64,000 nt of DNA from Kangiella sp. HZ709 (lineage in GTDB: Bacteria; Pseudomonadota; Gammaproteobacteria; Enterobacterales; Kangiellaceae): NCBI RefSeq assembly GCF_009674675.1, contig NZ_WKJC01000002.1, positions 62,001-126,000 on the forward strand, given 5' to 3'. Below, piece by piece: positions 48,276 to 55,550 of this stretch (its first letter is position 1; each line of letters starts with the position of its first letter). The notes under the pieces were generated by a model. That model was not told where the DNA came from. It saw only the letters and a list, made by a program, of their open reading frames with translations, and searched no databases. A program made the position numbers and the translations under genes.

Positions 48276-49493
48276 TTAGCAAGATCTTACCTCTATACTC
48301 CTTTTATGCCAAACTAATTGCTCAGCCTCTGCTAGAGCATCAGCGATGGGCGCTAATATCTGCCGACCTTTATCCGTAACTTGTTGTATGGTTTGAACTT
48401 TTAAAAAGCTCGCAACGTTTAAACCGCTTGAGTATTTAGCGGTGCCCATAGTGGGTAAAGTGTGATTGGGGCCTGAGCAATAATCGCCAAAGGCCACAGC
48501 GCTGTTATCGCCAATAAAAATGGCGCCGTAACTCGTAAGCTGTTTCGATTCAATGCGAGTATCAGCCAATAATAAGTGCTCAGGGGCAAACTCATCTGAA
48601 AATTGAATCATATCTTGAGGATCGTTTGCAGACACTAAACAAATTTGGTCTCTTACAAATAAACTCCATAAATATTCGTCAGCTTTTAACGAGCGATACA
48701 CCTCACCCAGTAAAGCCTGATTATCGGTCACAAACACACTATGCGCTTGCGGATCATGTTCGGCTTGCGCTGCCATATCTTTAACAATCCACTCAAGATT
48801 TGCCTCTTCTCCAGCTAAAATCAGCAATTCACTCGGGCCCGCCGGCACATCAATCGCTAATTGACTCTGAAAATACTGCTTAGCGGCATTCACATATTGA
48901 TTACCCGGTCCTACGATCATTTGCACTGGAGAAATTGATTGAAAGCCTAGTGCCATAGCCGATACAGCTTGAACACCGCCAATTTTTATAAAACTAGTAG
49001 CTCCCGCTAATGAGGCCGCGGCTAAAATTGCCGGGTGATCCGATGGTGAGCAAGCTACCCGCTCTTCACACCCTGCCACCTTTGCTGGAATTAAGGTCAT
49101 CAAAGCAGTGGATATCAAAGGAAAACGACCACCAGGAATATAAGCGCCAATTCGTTTAATTGCTTGATAGCAATAACCGTAGCTACCAGTATCATCACTA
49201 AAACTTCTATCTGCTAACGATTCTTTTTGGAACTTACAGAAAGTTTCAATTCGCTTCGCTGCCGCTTGAATCGCCTCTGCCAACTTATCTTCAAGTCCAT
49301 AAGATTCGAATGGCATTAACTCTATATGCTCAGGCACAAAGCCATCGTAGCGCTTACTGAACTTAATGATAGATTCATCACCGCCAAGCTCTATCTCTTT
49401 AATTAATTCATGAACCGCATGCAACCTTAGATTACTTTCGTTAGTGTTGGGTCTGCGCCAATTGTTAGTGGTATAAACGCCATTATCCAGCAT
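48276..49493 (-). CDS. hisD: histidinol dehydrogenase
   Basis: The 405-residue NAD- and zinc-dependent enzyme catalyses the last two steps, histidinol to histidine. Landmarks are GRFPLISTALMTLIPAKVAGC, VGPGNQYVNAAKQY, the DMAAQAEHDPQAHS segment with catalytic Glu and His, the zinc site in FAPEHLLL and GDYCSGPNHTLPT. It is about 25-30 residues shorter than E. coli HisD, mostly at the N-terminus. It starts 11 bases inside the hisA-IE gene and is the last his gene. Confidence 0.95.
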   Translation of the reverse strand: MLDNGVYTTNNWRRPNTNESNLRLHAVHELIKEIELGGDESIIKFSKRYDGFVPEHIELMPFESYGLEDKLAEAIQAAAKRIETFCKFQKESLADRSFSDDTGSYGYCYQAIKRIGAYIPGGRFPLISTALMTLIPAKVAGCEERVACSPSDHPAILAAASLAGATSFIKIGGVQAVSAMALGFQSISPVQMIVGPGNQYVNAAKQYFQSQLAIDVPAGPSELLILAGEEANLEWIVKDMAAQAEHDPQAHSVFVTDNQALLGEVYRSLKADEYLWSLFVRDQICLVSANDPQDMIQFSDEFAPEHLLLADTRIESKQLTSYGAIFIGDNSAVAFGDYCSGPNHTLPTMGTAKYSSGLNVASFLKVQTIQQVTDKGRQILAPIADALAEAEQLVWHKRSIEVRSC

Positions 49494-50721
49494 TACGGGC
49501 TCCTAGTTCATCAATAATATTTTGCGCAGATACGCCTTTAGCCTTAGCATTAACCAATGCAAAAAATAACAAATCTGCGGCTTCCCAGCGCACATCTTCC
49601 TGCGACTGAGCTTCGATTAATTCCGCACACTCTTCATTCAATTTTTCAGCTTGCAATTGCGCATCATTAAAAAGTTTAACGGTATAGGATTTCTGTTCAG
49701 GTTGCTCAAGACGGGTTTGCAAAACCTGATCTAGAGTATTTAAATTGAACTTGGCTGCTTGTGAGGCAAAGCAGCTGTATCGCTCAAAATGGCAAGCATT
49801 ACCAGTTTGCTTAACCTTAAATATTAAAGTATCGCCGTCACAGTCATAATCTACATTGATTAGATTCTGTGAACTGCCGCTAGTTAAACCTTTTTGCCAT
49901 AACTCTTTTCTCGAACGACTATAATAAACACCCTTCTTTTTTACTAAAGCTGCCCTTAAAGATTCACGAGATGAATATGCCAACATTAAAATACTAGCAG
50001 TCTCGTAATCTTGAACAATAGTTGGAATCAACTCACTTTTATTAAAGTCTAAGCATGCTTCTAAAGATTCCGCCAAGGTAATTTTATTAGTATATAAAGA
50101 CATACCAATCTGGCTATTAGCGCCCAGTGAGTTAATAAACTGTATATCCGAATAATCTGTAATGCCGCCTGCAATAGTCACTGAGACATTAGAGCTTTCG
50201 ATTATTTTTGATACTCTAGGCTTATCAATACCCTTTAATAAACCTTCTTTGTTAACTTGGGTGTATAAAAATTCAGAGCAATTTTTTTCTAATTCAGGAA
50301 TTAAGTCCAAAACTTTTTGTTTAGACTTTTCTTTCCAGCCTTTAATTGCCCAATAATCATCAAAGGCATCAATCGCAAATATCAACTGTTGCTTAGGAAG
50401 TTTTTTAACAAAACTGTCTCGGCAATTAGTGCCAATGATGATTTTGCTAGCGCCGCTTGATAAGTATTCTCGAGCAGTTTCATAGTCTCGAATACCACCG
50501 CCGACACGGCAGGGACGTTTTGCTAACAATTGCTTAATGAGTGCTTTGTTATCGCCATTACCTAAAGCCGCATTTAAATCAATAATCGCCACTTCACCAT
50601 ATAAGGAGAACTCTTCCAATAGTTCGAAAACATTATCCTTTTCTACGACTTTTTTATCAGGATTACCCTGTTGTAGTTGAACGGCTTTGCCATCCAATAA
50701 ATCTATCGATGGGATCAACAT
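49483..50721 (-). CDS. hisA-hisIE: trifunctional HisA-HisI-HisE fusion
   Basis: One 412-residue chain carries three histidine enzymes in order. HisA (1 to about 230) is the TIM-barrel ProFAR isomerase, starting MLIPSIDLLDGKAVQLQQG with the catalytic Asp7 and phosphate loops VGGGIRDY and IAGGITDY. HisI (about 231-320) is PR-AMP cyclohydrolase, with zinc motif DYDCDGD, ACH and SCF. HisE (about 325-412) is PR-ATP pyrophosphohydrolase, with the MazG-like EECAELIEA and EAADLLFF. It overlaps hisF by 7 bases and hisD by 11. A HisA-HisIE fusion is unusual. Confidence 0.92.
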   Translation of the reverse strand: MLIPSIDLLDGKAVQLQQGNPDKKVVEKDNVFELLEEFSLYGEVAIIDLNAALGNGDNKALIKQLLAKRPCRVGGGIRDYETAREYLSSGASKIIIGTNCRDSFVKKLPKQQLIFAIDAFDDYWAIKGWKEKSKQKVLDLIPELEKNCSEFLYTQVNKEGLLKGIDKPRVSKIIESSNVSVTIAGGITDYSDIQFINSLGANSQIGMSLYTNKITLAESLEACLDFNKSELIPTIVQDYETASILMLAYSSRESLRAALVKKKGVYYSRSRKELWQKGLTSGSSQNLINVDYDCDGDTLIFKVKQTGNACHFERYSCFASQAAKFNLNTLDQVLQTRLEQPEQKSYTVKLFNDAQLQAEKLNEECAELIEAQSQEDVRWEAADLLFFALVNAKAKGVSAQNIIDELGARNAG

Positions 50722-51512
50722 ATCCTTACCTCAATGTTATTTCTCATAAGTTCATTTTTCACTTGCGACACAGTAATCTCTACTCTATGGAACATTCCTG
50801 CCGCTAAAGCCGCATCACTACCAGCTTTAAAAGTCTCTACAAAATGTTGAGCATTGGATGCTCCGCCAGATGCGATAATTTGAATAGATGCATTAGCCGT
50901 TGCTTGCGCCATTAATTCATTATCAAAACCCGTACCGGTTCCATCCTTGTGCATAGCAGTTAATAAAATTTCACCAGCCCCTCTCGTCTCTATTTCATTA
51001 AACCAGTCAAAAGCTTTCAAATTGGTTTTAGAGTGACCGCCATTGATGTAGACCTGATACTCTTCTCCAACTTTATTGACATCAACCGCAACTACTAAGC
51101 ATTGAGAACCAAATCCCTTGCTGATTTGATTAATCAACTCAGGGTTATTAACAGCAGCGGAATTTAGTGCAACTTTATCCGCACCTGCATCTAAAAACAT
51201 TTTCACATCTTCGTATGAATTTAAGCCACCACCAACAGTAAAGGGTATCGATAAGTTTTTAGCCACCTGTGTTACGGTATCTAAAGCATTTTTTCGATTC
51301 TCTAATGTTGCCTTGATATCCAGAAAAACGATCTCATCCGCACCTTGCTCTTGATAATTCAATGCTAATTCAACCGGATCGCCCATATCGGTTAAGCCTT
51401 TAAAATTTACGCCTTTAACTACCCTACCGTTAGCTACATCTAAACACACAATAACTCGTGATTTTAATCGGTCATTCAACCTATTCTTTGACTTTTTCTT
51501 TAACCTAAGCAT
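50715..51512 (-). CDS. hisF: imidazole glycerol phosphate synthase cyclase subunit
   Basis: The 265-residue TIM-barrel partner of HisH forms imidazole glycerol phosphate and AICAR from PRFAR and ammonia. The catalytic Asp pair is in VIVCLDVANGRVVKGVNF and VVAVDVNKVG. The sequence is of the general bacterial HisF type rather than the enterobacterial subtype. An N-terminal extension of about 12 basic residues (LRLKKKSKNRLND) overlaps the end of hisH by 13 bases. Confidence 0.95.
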   Translation of the reverse strand: MLRLKKKSKNRLNDRLKSRVIVCLDVANGRVVKGVNFKGLTDMGDPVELALNYQEQGADEIVFLDIKATLENRKNALDTVTQVAKNLSIPFTVGGGLNSYEDVKMFLDAGADKVALNSAAVNNPELINQISKGFGSQCLVVAVDVNKVGEEYQVYINGGHSKTNLKAFDWFNEIETRGAGEILLTAMHKDGTGTGFDNELMAQATANASIQIIASGGASNAQHFVETFKAGSDAALAAGMFHRVEITVSQVKNELMRNNIEVRIC

Positions 51513-52090
51513 CGTCTTAGAATCTCCTCGCCTTGTTTGCCTGATTTTTCTGGATGAAATTGAAATGCTGTCAAACCATTACTAGCAATAGAAGCCACAA
51601 AATCTTCGCCATAACTTACTTTAGAAGTGACATTAACCGAGTTTTTAACTGCATAACTATTCACAAAATAAACGGATTTACCATTCAAGCTTGAAGATGA
51701 TGATTGTAAAGAGCACCATCCAACCATCGGCTGCTTAGGACTATTTAGCTTGGAAACCTGACCTTTGAGTAAACTAAGCCCAGCAATCCCTTCATCTTCT
51801 TCTGAAGATTCAAAGAAAATTTGCAAACCCACACAAATACCGATAATGTTTTTACCCTTTAGATACCAAGCCTTGATAGCTTCTGATAAGCCAGATTGAT
51901 TAAGGTTTTCCATCACGTTTCCAAAGCGGCCTTGCCCTGGAATCAGTAACGTCTGATAAATAGTGTCATCTAGTTGCTCTGCACTAGTCACTAACTCTGC
52001 TTCAACCTCGATCCTTTCAAGACAAGCAAATAAGCTAAATAAATTACCTGCGCCGGTATCAATCACCGCAACCTTTTTCAAAGGACTCAT
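51500..52090 (-). CDS. hisH: imidazole glycerol phosphate synthase glutaminase subunit
   Basis: The 196-residue class-I glutamine amidotransferase feeds ammonia to HisF. Catalytic Cys86 lies in GICVGLQIFFE and the His/Glu pair in FQFHPEKSG. The oxyanion-type motif PGQGRFG is present near residue 51. It starts inside the hisB stop codon and overlaps hisF by 13 bases. Confidence 0.95.
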   Translation of the reverse strand: MSPLKKVAVIDTGAGNLFSLFACLERIEVEAELVTSAEQLDDTIYQTLLIPGQGRFGNVMENLNQSGLSEAIKAWYLKGKNIIGICVGLQIFFESSEEDEGIAGLSLLKGQVSKLNSPKQPMVGWCSLQSSSSSLNGKSVYFVNSYAVKNSVNVTSKVSYGEDFVASIASNGLTAFQFHPEKSGKQGEEILRRCLG

Positions 52091-52665
52091 AAGATCCCCT
52101 TAGAGCTATTGTCCAGCGGATTCTCTTGTAACGCTTCCTTTAAAGCGAAGGCTACTGCTTTGAACGCTGCTTCTATCAAATGATGATTATTGTCAAAATA
52201 CTCTGCTTTGATGTGTAAGCTGATTTGTGCATTGATCGCAAAGCTATAAAAGAAATGCTTCCACATTTCCGTAGCGATATTTCCAACTTGCTCTCGAGTG
52301 AAAGGTAAATCACAAACGCTATAAGAACGACCACAAACATCTACTGCAACCATTATCAATGTTGCATCCATAGGTAAAAGTCTTTGTCCATAACGCTTGA
52401 TTGATTTTTCAGCACGCCATGCTTGACTAAATGCCTGACCTAAACAAATGGCCACATCCTCAATTAAATGATGGTCATCAACCTCTATATCTCCACTAGC
52501 AATTAACTTTAAATCCCAACCTGAATGCATCGCCAGCTGAGTTAGCATATGGTCAAAAAACGCAAGCCCTGTATCAATTTCCAACAGTTGTTTCCCTTTG
52601 ATATTAAGGCTTAGTTGAATATCAGTTTCTTTAGTTTTTCTTTCAACATTAATTATTGAACTCAT
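52087..52665 (-). CDS. hisB: imidazoleglycerol-phosphate dehydratase
   Basis: The 192-residue single-function dehydratase has the two manganese motifs DDHHLIEDV and NNHHLIEAAFKA. Unlike enterobacterial HisB it has no N-terminal histidinol phosphatase domain; that activity is probably supplied by the HAD domain on HisC. It overlaps hisC-HAD and hisH by 4 bases each. Confidence 0.96.
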   Translation of the reverse strand: MSSIINVERKTKETDIQLSLNIKGKQLLEIDTGLAFFDHMLTQLAMHSGWDLKLIASGDIEVDDHHLIEDVAICLGQAFSQAWRAEKSIKRYGQRLLPMDATLIMVAVDVCGRSYSVCDLPFTREQVGNIATEMWKHFFYSFAINAQISLHIKAEYFDNNHHLIEAAFKAVAFALKEALQENPLDNSSKGIL

Positions 52666-54350
52666 AATAGATACTCCAGCTCATTCACATTATTCAAAAC
52701 CAAATCAGCACCGTATTGATAGAGATTATCATCACCAATGCCTATCGCTATTGCACCTGCTGATTTAGCCGCCTGCATATCATCTGGCGCATCGCCCAAC
52801 ATCCAGACTAAATTTTTTTGATAGTAGCTTTTTGCTTTTTGGATACCTTCAGGGTTTGGTTTTGATTGCGCCACATCATCATCACTGATGAGCAAGGTAT
52901 TTCGGATTTCTAATTGACTTAACCCCTGCTCAGCTTCTGATTTAGGTCGGCCAGTAACCACTGCAGTATTTAAAGATTTGGCTTTTGAAATAAAAACTTT
53001 CTTTGATAACTTTTGTGATAAAAAGGCTGTCTCTTTTAGGTATAAACCTTTATTACTGGTATCACCTAAATAAAACCTCTGAAACACTTGCGTCACCTGC
53101 TCAATGGAAGCTGATTTGCCTTGTAAGCGGATTAGCTCTTGAGCCAATAACCAATCATTATTAAATCCACCCTGCCCTCTAACTTTGAGCACAGCTTCTC
53201 TAGTAAGCTTTTTACCAGTGAACTCCTGTACCGCTTTAATGATGCACTGGTCATAGCTGCTGGAAGTATCAATCAAGACTCCATCCATATCGAAACATAC
53301 CAATTCAGGCTCTAAAGCTAATCTCAATGCTAGCAATAATCGGTCCATGTAAATAGGTATGCCAATTCGTATTGCAGAAAATTCTTTCTTAGTAGACAGG
53401 CCCGTTAAATCGCTTTTAATTTGGATATTAAATTGATTACAAGCACTACTAATTAACTGAAGTTGCCTAGGATCGGCTTGAATTAATATAAAGTTCGCTT
53501 GGCTATCATTAATAACCAATTCAAAATTAGCCAAGTAATTCACCAGCTGTTGACGGTTTTCTGAGATCTGTTTGCAGTAGTTTCTCACTTCTAATCTTGC
53601 TGCATCGCTAAATGCTAATTGTGCTAACTGCTCGTTTGGTCGTGAAATATTAAAAGGTAATGCTAAAGCTTTAAAAGTACTGATGATTAACTCTTGACCC
53701 ATTAAGTATCCCACTCGTATACCGGCTAAACCGTAAGCTTTAGATAAAGTTCTAAGCATTAAAATATTCTCAAACTCATTCAATAGATCAATGCATTGTT
53801 GTTCTTGCTCAGTGAACTCTATGTATGCAAAATCGATAAAAACATACGCCCGTTTTTCTTTAGCTTGCTGGCATACGGCTTTTATTTGTTCATAAGTAAA
53901 AGTTTCACCACTAGGATTGTTTGGACTGGTCAGAATTAATACTGAGCTTTCTTCTATAGCCTGAATTGCTTGCTCTAAATTAATGCTCAAATCTTCATTT
54001 GGCTCTATAAGAACGCTATCTAGCTGCCAACTATCTTTGCCTATCCAATATTGACTGAATGCTGGTAAAGGTATAATAATTTGATAATTATTAAGCTTTA
54101 CCCACTTAAACATCAGCTCAATGGCTTCATCGCCTCCATTGGTTAGTAAAAGCTGCTGCTCATTAATACCCAAATTTTTTGCAGCCCTTTGCTGTAAATT
54201 GTTTTTAGAGGGATATTTCCATAAACTCTCCAACTCCACATCAATGCCGGACAACCATAATGGCAAACTGTCGGAGCGTTCATTAAAATCAAGTTTCAAC
54301 GCCTTCTTTGATTGATAGTCTAGGCATTTATCTATATTAAGTTGCGTCAT
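52662..54350 (-). CDS. hisC: histidinol-phosphate aminotransferase fused to a HAD phosphatase
   Basis: The 562-residue chain has HisC at about 1-345: ALKLDFNERSD, ILTSPNNPSGETF, PLP lysine Lys204 in TLSKAYGLAGIR, and the Arg-containing C-terminal FSAIRIGIP. A HAD IA phosphatase occupies about 350-562: nucleophile Asp354 in CFDMDGVLIDTSSSY, the signature GQGGFNNDW, motif II VVTGRP, motif III Lys in SKPNPEG and motif IV LGDAPDDMQAA. The HAD part resembles TIGR01548. It is the best candidate for histidinol-phosphate phosphatase, absent elsewhere in the operon. hisB overlaps by 4 bases. Confidence 0.93.
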   Translation of the reverse strand: MTQLNIDKCLDYQSKKALKLDFNERSDSLPLWLSGIDVELESLWKYPSKNNLQQRAAKNLGINEQQLLLTNGGDEAIELMFKWVKLNNYQIIIPLPAFSQYWIGKDSWQLDSVLIEPNEDLSINLEQAIQAIEESSVLILTSPNNPSGETFTYEQIKAVCQQAKEKRAYVFIDFAYIEFTEQEQQCIDLLNEFENILMLRTLSKAYGLAGIRVGYLMGQELIISTFKALALPFNISRPNEQLAQLAFSDAARLEVRNYCKQISENRQQLVNYLANFELVINDSQANFILIQADPRQLQLISSACNQFNIQIKSDLTGLSTKKEFSAIRIGIPIYMDRLLLALRLALEPELVCFDMDGVLIDTSSSYDQCIIKAVQEFTGKKLTREAVLKVRGQGGFNNDWLLAQELIRLQGKSASIEQVTQVFQRFYLGDTSNKGLYLKETAFLSQKLSKKVFISKAKSLNTAVVTGRPKSEAEQGLSQLEIRNTLLISDDDVAQSKPNPEGIQKAKSYYQKNLVWMLGDAPDDMQAAKSAGAIAIGIGDDNLYQYGADLVLNNVNELEYLL

Positions 54351-54360
54351 AAACTTCTCC

Positions 54361-55209
54361 CTACAGCACCTTTCTGATTGGGGTTTCTAAAATATCCGTT
54401 GCACCTACTGATATAAGCTTAGGTAATAAGTCCTTGGTCGCTTTTCTTTCTATTGCGGCTTTAATAGCAAAACCATCTCCTTTATAAAGCTCACTAACCG
54501 TTGGAGAGCGCATAGCCGGTAACAACGACACAATAGCTTCAACATTGTCTTGAGTGCAGTTCATTTCAAGTAACACTCGTTTACGGCCGTTCATGACCCC
54601 ACGCATCAGCAACAATAAGTCATCAATTTGCTTTTTCTTTACGGGATCATTCATCACAGCTTTGTTGGCGATAAATTGGGTAGAGCTTTCCATAGCTGTT
54701 CCTACTATTTTCAAACGATTTGCCCGAATGGTTGAGCCGGTACTGGTATTATCTATCACCATATCGGCATCTTCAGGCGGAAATACTTCGGTAGCTCCAT
54801 AGGCTCTGAAGAGTTTGTAGTTTGCGCCAATAGAATCCAAATATTTAGCAGCTATCTTCTTATATTCCGATGCGACTATAATTTCTCGCTGCTTGATTTC
54901 TTGCCAATCCCAATCTTCTGGAATACAAGAAACAATTTTCACCGGGTTAAAGCCTAAATCTTCTAATACTTCAACATCGGCATCTTGCTCTATGATCCAG
55001 TCCATACCAGCAAAGCCAATGTCGTGTTGACCTAAAGCCACCATCTCTGGAATATTCTGGCTTTTTAATAATTTAACCTCGATATCGCAACCATAGAGGC
55101 TCGGTCGATAATTTCGGCTATCACCAATTAAGGTTAAACCAATATCCGATAATAGCTCTTCAACCTTGTTGTAAAGTTTTCCTTTTGGGATAACCATTTT
55201 CAATGTCAT
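54361..55209 (-). CDS. hisG: ATP phosphoribosyltransferase, long form
   Basis: The ~282-residue enzyme catalyses the committed step, joining ATP and PRPP. The catalytic part starts MTLKMVIPKGKLYNKV, with GQHDIGFAGMDWI and the PRPP loop ADMVIDNTSTGST. A C-terminal ACT-like regulatory domain (about 210-282, ending GATDILETPIRKVL) is present, so it is the long form, feedback-inhibited by histidine. The frame is open to 55281, but that start would lie inside the attenuator. ATG 55209 has GGAGAG 8 bases before it and is the real start. Confidence 0.95.
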   Translation of the reverse strand: MTLKMVIPKGKLYNKVEELLSDIGLTLIGDSRNYRPSLYGCDIEVKLLKSQNIPEMVALGQHDIGFAGMDWIIEQDADVEVLEDLGFNPVKIVSCIPEDWDWQEIKQREIIVASEYKKIAAKYLDSIGANYKLFRAYGATEVFPPEDADMVIDNTSTGSTIRANRLKIVGTAMESSTQFIANKAVMNDPVKKKQIDDLLLLMRGVMNGRKRVLLEMNCTQDNVEAIVSLLPAMRSPTVSELYKGDGFAIKAAIERKATKDLLPKLISVGATDILETPIRKVL

Positions 55210-55241: not shown

Positions 55242-55278
55242 AAAAACCCCGTTGACCTTTCGGCGCAACGGGGTTTTT
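55242..55278 (-). terminator. his attenuator terminator 1 (proximal to hisG)
   Basis: On the minus strand AAAAACCCCGTTG pairs with CAACGGGGTTTTT: 13 perfect pairs (55278-55266 with 55254-55242) and a U-run. Its first arm (CCGUUGC) can instead pair with GCAACGG in leader peptide 1, codons 17-19 region. It ends 32 bp before hisG. Confidence 0.93.
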
Positions 55279-55302
55279 CAAAATTCGTAATCTAGTTAAA
55301 TA

Positions 55303-55371
55303 CTACCAATCCCACCGTTGCTTTAGCAAAGTGTGATGATGGTGATGAATAGTATTTAGTTGATAGTTCAT
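55303..55371 (-). CDS. hisL: his leader peptide 1
   Basis: A 22-codon ORF: starts MNYQLNTI, has five consecutive His (CAT CAC CAT CAT CAC), then TLLKQRWDW and stop TAG. A weak GAGA site lies a few bases before the ATG. Ribosomes stalled at the His codons would leave the following GCAACGG free to form the antiterminator; reaching the stop codon would cover it. Confidence 0.9.
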   Translation of the reverse strand: MNYQLNTIHHHHHTLLKQRWDW

Positions 55372-55395
55372 ATTTTCTCAATTTTCTTTAAACAT

Positions 55396-55424
55396 AAAAA
55401 AAGCCCCGCTATTTGCGGGGCTTT
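55396..55424 (-). terminator. his attenuator terminator 2 (distal)
   Basis: On the minus strand AAAGCCCCGC (55424-55415) pairs with GCGGGGCTTT (55409-55400) around a 5-base loop, followed by a run of T that extends to 55396. The first arm CCCCGC is complementary to GCGGGG in the last codons of leader peptide 2. Confidence 0.93.
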
Positions 55425-55455
55425 AAAATTCTTAATTAGATTATTTTAAGCAATA

Positions 55456-55515
55456 TCACCCCGCCATCATGTTAGTATGATGGTGATGATGGTTTTGTGC
55501 TTTCAAAATAATCAT
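55456..55515 (-). CDS. hisL: his leader peptide 2
   Basis: A 19-codon ORF, MIILKAQNHHHHHTNMMAG, with five consecutive His codons (CAT CAT CAC CAT CAT). The codons for Ala-Gly (GCG GGG) contain the antiterminator half GCGGGG. No Shine-Dalgarno is seen. If the proposed promoter is right, the transcript starts at or near the ATG, so it could be leaderless. Confidence 0.85.
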   Translation of the reverse strand: MIILKAQNHHHHHTNMMAG

Positions 55516-55521
55516 GTTGCT

Positions 55522-55550
55522 AATGTAATAAAGCAAGATGACGATGTCAA
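55522..55550 (-). promoter_or_regulatory. candidate his operon promoter
   Basis: On the minus strand a perfect -35 box TTGACA (55550-55545), a 17-bp spacer and TACATT (55527-55522, four of six matches to TATAAT). The start point would be about 55515. Inferred from consensus only. Confidence 0.55.

Follow-up and report, generated by a model that had tools for sequence, protein, structure and literature searches.

Attenuation of the his and trp operons is the textbook example of feedback at the RNA level, and the his operons of enteric bacteria are controlled by a single his leader with one such unit. The described his leader family, hisL (RF00514), places a His-run leader ORF, a protector, an antiterminator and a terminator before hisG. 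In silico, each of the two units that we describe here upstream of the hisG gene of Kangiella sp. HZ709 is built in the same way. One unit is the rule among the loci examined, as seen in 68 of 70 regions from the order (presumably the Enterobacterales), whereas Kangiella has two, of which the first has a probably leaderless leader and both score below the Rfam cut-off. Tandem T-box elements also consist of two units in tandem reading His-tRNA. However, the T-box RNA itself binds the tRNA, and these elements belong to the Firmicutes and control another operon.

Several other systems share part of this anatomy. The tandem TPP riboswitches described as pseudo-cooperative carry two complete sensor and terminator units in series that respond to one signal, and the effect described for them is a steeper, more digital response (PMC9481103). 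The sensor there is an aptamer with its ligand, whereas in Kangiella it would be a translating ribosome and the charging of tRNA. The Salmonella mgtCBR operon has two translated leader ORFs in series, and its authors present tandem attenuators for different signals in one leader as a singular example; as described there, the signals are two (ATP and proline) and one step is possibly Rho-dependent, whereas Kangiella has two intrinsic terminators (PMC3641672). In several Gammaproteobacteria the rimP leader is reported to have tandem terminators, the upstream one with a potential antiterminator, but the gene is a different one and the account given of that leader does not mention a control-codon leader ORF (PMC2965389). 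The trpL attenuator RNA of Sinorhizobium is described as beginning at the ATG of its leader ORF, and is leaderless, but it is a single Trp unit in an alphaproteobacterium (PMC7298713). A published model of attenuation is formulated for one leader, with basal read-through and sensitivity treated as design problems (PMC1183508).

Our search of the open-licence literature (subscription literature being outside its scope) found no report of two ribosome-read attenuators for the same amino acid in series. What appears to be new in Kangiella is a doubled, apparently insulated his attenuator that is old and conserved, whilst the attenuator class itself is known. Consistent with the preliminary description of this locus, we consider it probable that the his leader RNA ahead of hisG comprises a series of two complete His attenuators, each read by a ribosome. 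This reading is based on sequence and conservation, namely two ORFs, two terminators, matched spacing, preferred pairings and a single conserved promoter.

Layout of the his leader region

The window, which is the whole 64 000 nt stretch of DNA analysed, carries the his operon on its minus strand. The order upstream of hisG, from 55550 to 55209, is promoter-like site, ORF 1, terminator 1, ORF 2 and terminator 2, and the individual features are as follows.

55522-55550, minus strand: predicted promoter; -35 box TTGACA at 55550-55545, 17-nt spacer, -10 box TACATT at 55527-55522
55456-55515, minus strand: leader ORF 1, MIILKAQNHHHHHTNMMAG; His codons at 55491-55477; probably leaderless
55459-55464, minus strand: antiterminator arm 1 (GCGGGG), which pairs with CCCCGC at 55420-55415
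55483-55477 with 55470-55464, minus strand: protector hairpin, the alternative for arm 1, formed by CCATCAT (end of the His run) and ATGATGG
55400-55424, minus strand: terminator 1 hairpin, 10 pairs, then a U-run
55303-55371, minus strand: leader ORF 2, MNYQLNTIHHHHHTLLKQRWDW; His codons at 55347-55333; weak Shine-Dalgarno (-2.7 kcal/mol)
55315-55321, minus strand: antiterminator arm 2 (GCAACGG), which pairs with CCGTTGC at 55271-55265
55242-55278, minus strand: terminator 2 hairpin, 13 pairs counting the A-U flank, then a U-run
54361-55209, minus strand: hisG, which opens the controlled operon; 282 aa, with HisG and HisG_C domains
48276-54350, minus strand: remaining his operon, with a hisC-type aminotransferase/HAD-type phosphatase fusion, hisB (IGPD), hisH, hisF, a hisA-hisIE fusion and hisD

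The preliminary description had reported both ORFs, both terminators, their U-runs and both arm complementarities; all are present, and every coordinate that it gives was confirmed when rechecked on the sequence. In each leader ORF the five His codons are codons 9-13, and the next codon is Thr. For terminator 2, the terminator finder gives 11 pairs, which become 13 once the A-U flank is read from the sequence; a consensus terminator scan misses this hairpin because its loop exceeds the 8 nt allowed. Folding, proposed earlier as a check, gave -94.5 kcal/mol for the leader RNA against a shuffle mean of -53.0 kcal/mol (z -9.2), a stability that none of 200 shuffles equalled.

Runs of five CAY codons, in any frame, are found at six separate places in the 2.41-Mb genome (eight overlapping matches), and two of the six are the two his leaders, 144 nt apart. 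A run of six His codons was observed at G000:C3 ~1600730-1601160 (L086), in a small gene with a signal-like start that is interrupted by an in-frame TAG. The frame is open for roughly 113 codons past the TAG, and the gene may be a pseudogene or a case of recoding.

At the HisG protein level, the window matches an uncultured Kangiella sp. with 97% identity, and K. aquimarina, K. spongicola and K. taiwanensis with 83-84%, which places it in Kangiella. Two of the his genes are fused, one encoding a HisC-type aminotransferase with a C-terminal HAD phosphatase (52662-54350) and the other HisA with HisIE (49483-50721). The HAD domain of the HisC fusion may be the source of the histidinol-phosphatase step. 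The possibility that hisD is absent from the operon was rejected, as hisD occupies 48276-49493.

Conservation and pairing within Kangiella

The Kangiella sample consisted of 20 genomes, 19 of them with hisG; the twentieth is 55% complete and gave no hisG match. Retention of both His-run ORFs and both hairpins in close relatives had been named as a check in the preliminary description, and all four elements are kept in each of the 19 genomes with hisG. Both leaders were identified by script in 18 genomes and by alignment in L026, where the His run of unit 1 reads HHSNHH. Classification of L026 as a single-leader locus was rejected, because the alignment shows this run, which fell outside the first regular expression. 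The antiterminator arm starts at one alignment column in both units, 11 nt past the His block across a gap-free stretch; the exception is unit 2 of L023, with a shorter His run that ends 14 nt before the arm. A chance origin of the two units was rejected, since the elements and their order recur in all 19 genomes.

The features that define an attenuator can be followed across these loci. A run of end-product codons in a short ORF is present in both ORFs, for which translation is predicted. An intrinsic terminator precedes the first gene, and one follows each leader in 19/19 Kangiella loci (L014 has one further weak match) and in 14/14 tandem loci of Marinicella's family (the family of L072, which we take to be the Marinicellaceae). 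A mutually exclusive antiterminator is indicated in silico only, by pairing, energies and the 11-nt spacing, without covariation inside Kangiella.

In the Kangiella alignment, 99.4% of the terminator 1 cells are paired and two pairs are changed on both sides, which 4 of 500 shuffles equal. For terminator 2, 97.7% of cells are paired and one pair is changed on both sides, in 7 cells; none of 500 shuffles matches it in cells or in covariation score, yet 491 of the 500 also give one such pair. Antiterminator cells are paired at 93.7% in unit 1 and 100% in unit 2, and sliding the register by 1-3 columns reduces these values to 27-61% and 38-71%, respectively. The antiterminator helices have no both-side changes inside Kangiella, where shuffled controls equal them, and covariation gives them no support because their pairs hardly vary within the genus. 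The pairing does vary at L026, where unit 1 uses another register (GGGGCT with AGCCCC) and arm 2 reads GCGACGG opposite CCGTCGC, in place of the GCAACGG opposite CCGTTGC of the window.

The antiterminator hairpins of unit 1 have predicted energies of -13.2 to -20.1 kcal/mol across 19 loci, and those of unit 2, computed for 15 of the 19, have -15.2 to -25.6 kcal/mol; these values are comparable to those of terminator 1 (-10.3 to -17.8 kcal/mol) and terminator 2 (-15.3 to -19.5 kcal/mol). In each of the 19 Kangiella loci, both arms pair more strongly with the terminator of their own unit than with the other one, the smallest margin for arm 1 being that of L006-L008 (-15.5 vs -12.1). As each arm favours its own terminator, the two gates look insulated from one another. 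When the leader is folded by itself, 5 of the 6 nt of arm 1 are paired in 18/19 loci (L026 has 2 of 6), as are 3-6 of the 7 nt of arm 2 in 19/19, so that an untranslated leader should default to termination.

Arm/terminator pairing was also compared with dinucleotide shuffles of the sequence that follows the His run, for those units whose terminator was caught by the strict finder. Values of p<=0.05 were obtained for 16/18 unit 1 and 15/18 unit 2 copies in Kangiella, for 9/14 unit 1 copies, 4/8 unit 2 copies and 7/10 single leaders in Marinicella's family, and for 6/16 other single leaders.

Against the Rfam His_leader model (RF00514), unit 1 scores 27.9 bits and unit 2 scores 27.1 bits across all 126 model positions (1-126), below the cut-off of 49 bits. 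The leader models for Phe (33.7 bits), Trp (29.2 bits) and Leu (28.0 bits) give unit 1 slightly higher scores, and no Rfam family matched at its gathering threshold in the whole window. Two complete same-signal units, each with an expression platform as in a pseudo-cooperative tandem riboswitch, are present by anatomy only, and the apparent sensor is a leader ORF, not a ligand-binding aptamer. The tandem his leader may work like such a riboswitch, but does not belong to that class.

Distribution and history of the tandem leader

Outside Kangiella, the tandem pair was found in none of the 17 other Kangiella-family genomes with hisG; 15 of these have one leader and two (L037 and L129) have only scattered His codons. 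Three loci of other families with the same HisG type (L035, L040 and L041) have one leader each. Marinicella's family yielded a HisG match in 30 of 33 genomes, from which four distant HisG without a leader and L122, cut inside the gene, were left out. Among the remaining 25 loci, 14 have two leaders, 10 have one and L116 is cut at a contig end that falls just after an apparent terminator. Unit 2 of the tandem loci in this family has 3-5 His codons.

A survey of the order covered 70 hisG upstream regions (30 + 40 loci) out of 114 genomes with HisG, and found two leaders in none of them, one in 68 and none in two. Three matches were discarded by hand: in L265 a second match on the wrong strand, in L266 a second match ~1.3 kb upstream, and in L262 the sole match, which was on the wrong strand and concerned a second hisG of that genome. 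L315 was scored as one leader though it has only three His codons. A separate set of 14 control loci of the order, whose HisG is of the distant type, has one leader at each locus. The survey overlaps with these 14 controls in G044, G050, G053 and G060, and G058 is in both with different hisG copies.

Across the class, none of 132 upstream regions had two leaders and one had a clear His leader. These regions, one of them cut to 390 nt, came from 128 of 130 genomes with HisG, the window genome and G169 lying outside; scattered His codons account for the matches in L145 and L220, which were not scored as leaders. A search for close HisG relatives at E<=1e-60 across 369 class genomes returned only the window's own genome. 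No tandem leader was found on another amino-acid operon in the same genome, where the search covered the presumed trpE and LeuA. The presumed trpE (L333) has no upstream ORF with at least two Trp codons within 400 nt, and a LeuA dimer domain was not found in genome G000, which hints at leucine auxotrophy.

The phylogeny of HisG does not follow the taxonomy. In a tree of 64 HisG proteins, Kangiella (19 loci, all tandem) groups with Marinicella's family (14 tandem, 10 single and 1 unknown) with support of 96/88, and the other genera of the Kangiella family stand apart from Kangiella. A constraint keeping the whole Kangiella family together was rejected (AU p 0.008), a value to be read with caution given the long branches of L041, L026 and L040 and a test named after the first tree had been inspected. 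This conflict between HisG grouping and taxonomy suggests that the his operon moved laterally together with its leader. The tandem or single state requires six changes on the HisG tree, a count that cannot separate gain from loss. The pattern fits one old origin followed by several losses of unit 2, which is the simplest account, and is also compatible with repeated gains.

One statement in the preliminary description needs correction and another can be made more precise. It held that the units share little sequence; in all 33 tandem loci, however, the likeness of unit 1 to unit 2 of the same genome exceeds that of shuffles (p 0.003-0.03), with part of it contributed by a shared terminator motif. 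It also regarded the units as either an old duplication or convergent. The pair is old and is also present in Marinicella's family. The two units likely arose by duplication, which stays short of proof because the shared terminator motif contributes to their likeness.

Predicted mechanism and alternative explanations

From this architecture we infer stalling, the switch itself, the independence of the gates, a lower leak and a steeper response. Transcription is predicted to start from one promoter, at or beside the ATG of ORF 1. With charged His-tRNA available, the ribosome would traverse ORF 1 and cover the antiterminator arm, terminator 1 would form and most transcripts would stop. With charged His-tRNA scarce, the ribosome would stall on the His codons and leave the arm, ~11 nt beyond, free to take the 5' half of terminator 1, and RNA polymerase would continue. 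A second ribosome would repeat the test at ORF 2 and terminator 2 before RNA polymerase gets to hisG. If neither leader were translated, the arms would fold into hairpins with the leader ORFs and the terminators would form by default.

If the gates are independent, their read-through fractions should multiply and their logarithmic sensitivities add. The earlier expectation that output is the product of two His-tRNA responses follows arithmetically only under this independence. In an illustrative race model with assumed rates and a 3% leak per gate, the second gate lowers the leak from ~3% to 0.1% and raises the maximal log sensitivity from 2.7-2.9 to 5.5. The histidine switch of these marine bacteria would then be tighter and sharper than the single checkpoint of most relatives examined, and ribosome-read attenuators could build up like modules, with preferred arm/terminator pairs keeping the gates apart.

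A fuller model can be proposed, in which the leader is a ribosome-read pseudo-cooperative switch made of two insulated His attenuators, the first leaderless and the second entered internally. In this model the arrangement is old and common to Kangiella and Marinicella's family, can contract by recombination between the terminators, and gives a near-digital response beyond that of a single his leader. We regard the chances for and against this complete model as evenly balanced.

It is possible, though unlikely, that unit 2 is redundant, a second copy that has persisted by chance or as insurance against leak, so that one gate in effect regulates and the response is no sharper. The absence of unit 2 from 10 of the 25 Marinicella-family loci, which indicates that it is dispensable there, is in keeping with redundancy. 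So is the comparison of the tandem locus L103 with its sister L105, which has a single leader. The two sequences agree as far as the U-run of terminator 1 and then once more past terminator 2, and L105 has apparently lost unit 2 by a deletion between the terminators, as if by recombination, whilst L103 keeps it. Against redundancy, unit 2 is present in 19/19 Kangiella loci despite diverged surroundings, the pairs of terminator 2 are restored by double changes and the pairing of arm with terminator is preferred. This natural pair of tandem and single-unit loci offers a direct test of whether serial attenuation by two His attenuators gives a lower leak and a steeper response.

A rather improbable alternative is that the two leaders perform different tests, leader 1 being leaderless and leader 2 entered internally. 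The pair would then act as an AND gate for His shortage and the state of translation initiation, or would respond to a shortage long enough to stall two ribosomes in turn. The evidence on this point, part of which also underlies the main reading, comes from the predicted start of the transcript. In 31 of 33 tandem loci, the highest-scoring sigma-70 match ahead of ORF 1 has its end 6-8 nt from the ATG; L008 and L108 (contig end) are the exceptions. In controls from other families of the order, the distance from the best match to the ATG is 13-78 nt (14/14). In the window, the -10 box is 6 nt from the ATG of ORF 1, and the predicted transcription start is at or beside this ATG. Promoter-like matches in the window alone are at chance level (2 found, 1.9 expected), so that the case for the promoter is made by the 31 of 33 tandem loci and not by the window alone. 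The same 6-8 nt spacing was found in 8/10 single loci of Marinicella's family and 10/15 other single loci (18/25, all of the same HisG type). ORF starts of the tandem loci were set by hand; most Marinicella-family loci have two in-frame ATGs, and the inner one was used, as the -10 box overlaps the outer one.

Leader 1 is probably leaderless because the -10 box ends 6-8 nt from its ATG, and if the predicted start is right there is no room for a ribosome-binding site. These loci suggest a clade in which the his leader peptides are probably leaderless, in contrast to the 14/14 controls of other families. ORF 2 in Kangiella has anti-Shine-Dalgarno energies of -0.7 to -5.4 kcal/mol, which also fits a difference between the leaders. 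However, both leaders carry codons for the same amino acid and are almost alike in geometry, a second signal was not found, the start sites are predicted, and ORF 2 in the tandem loci of Marinicella's family also has no Shine-Dalgarno sequence. These points speak against different tests at the two leaders.

We hold it very improbable that terminator 1 serves mainly to release a stable small RNA or leader peptide acting elsewhere, with unit 2 as the real attenuator. Leaderless attenuator RNA with functions in trans is described for rnTrpL/peTrpL of Sinorhizobium (PMC7298713). Unit 1, however, keeps a full attenuator architecture, the leader peptides are variable outside the His run, and in L097, L100, L105 and L107 the single leader is similar to unit 1 of the related tandem loci.

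Finally, a promoter between the units, which the preliminary description recognized would make them alternative leaders and not serial gates, is scarcely credible: the promoter-like matches found there are weak (6-9 of 12), scattered over differing positions and not conserved, the score before ORF 1 is higher than the best inter-unit score in 31/33 tandem loci (L008 ties and L108 is lost to a contig end), and L006, L008, L020 and L026 have only ~15-21 nt between the end of the unit 1 block and ORF 2.
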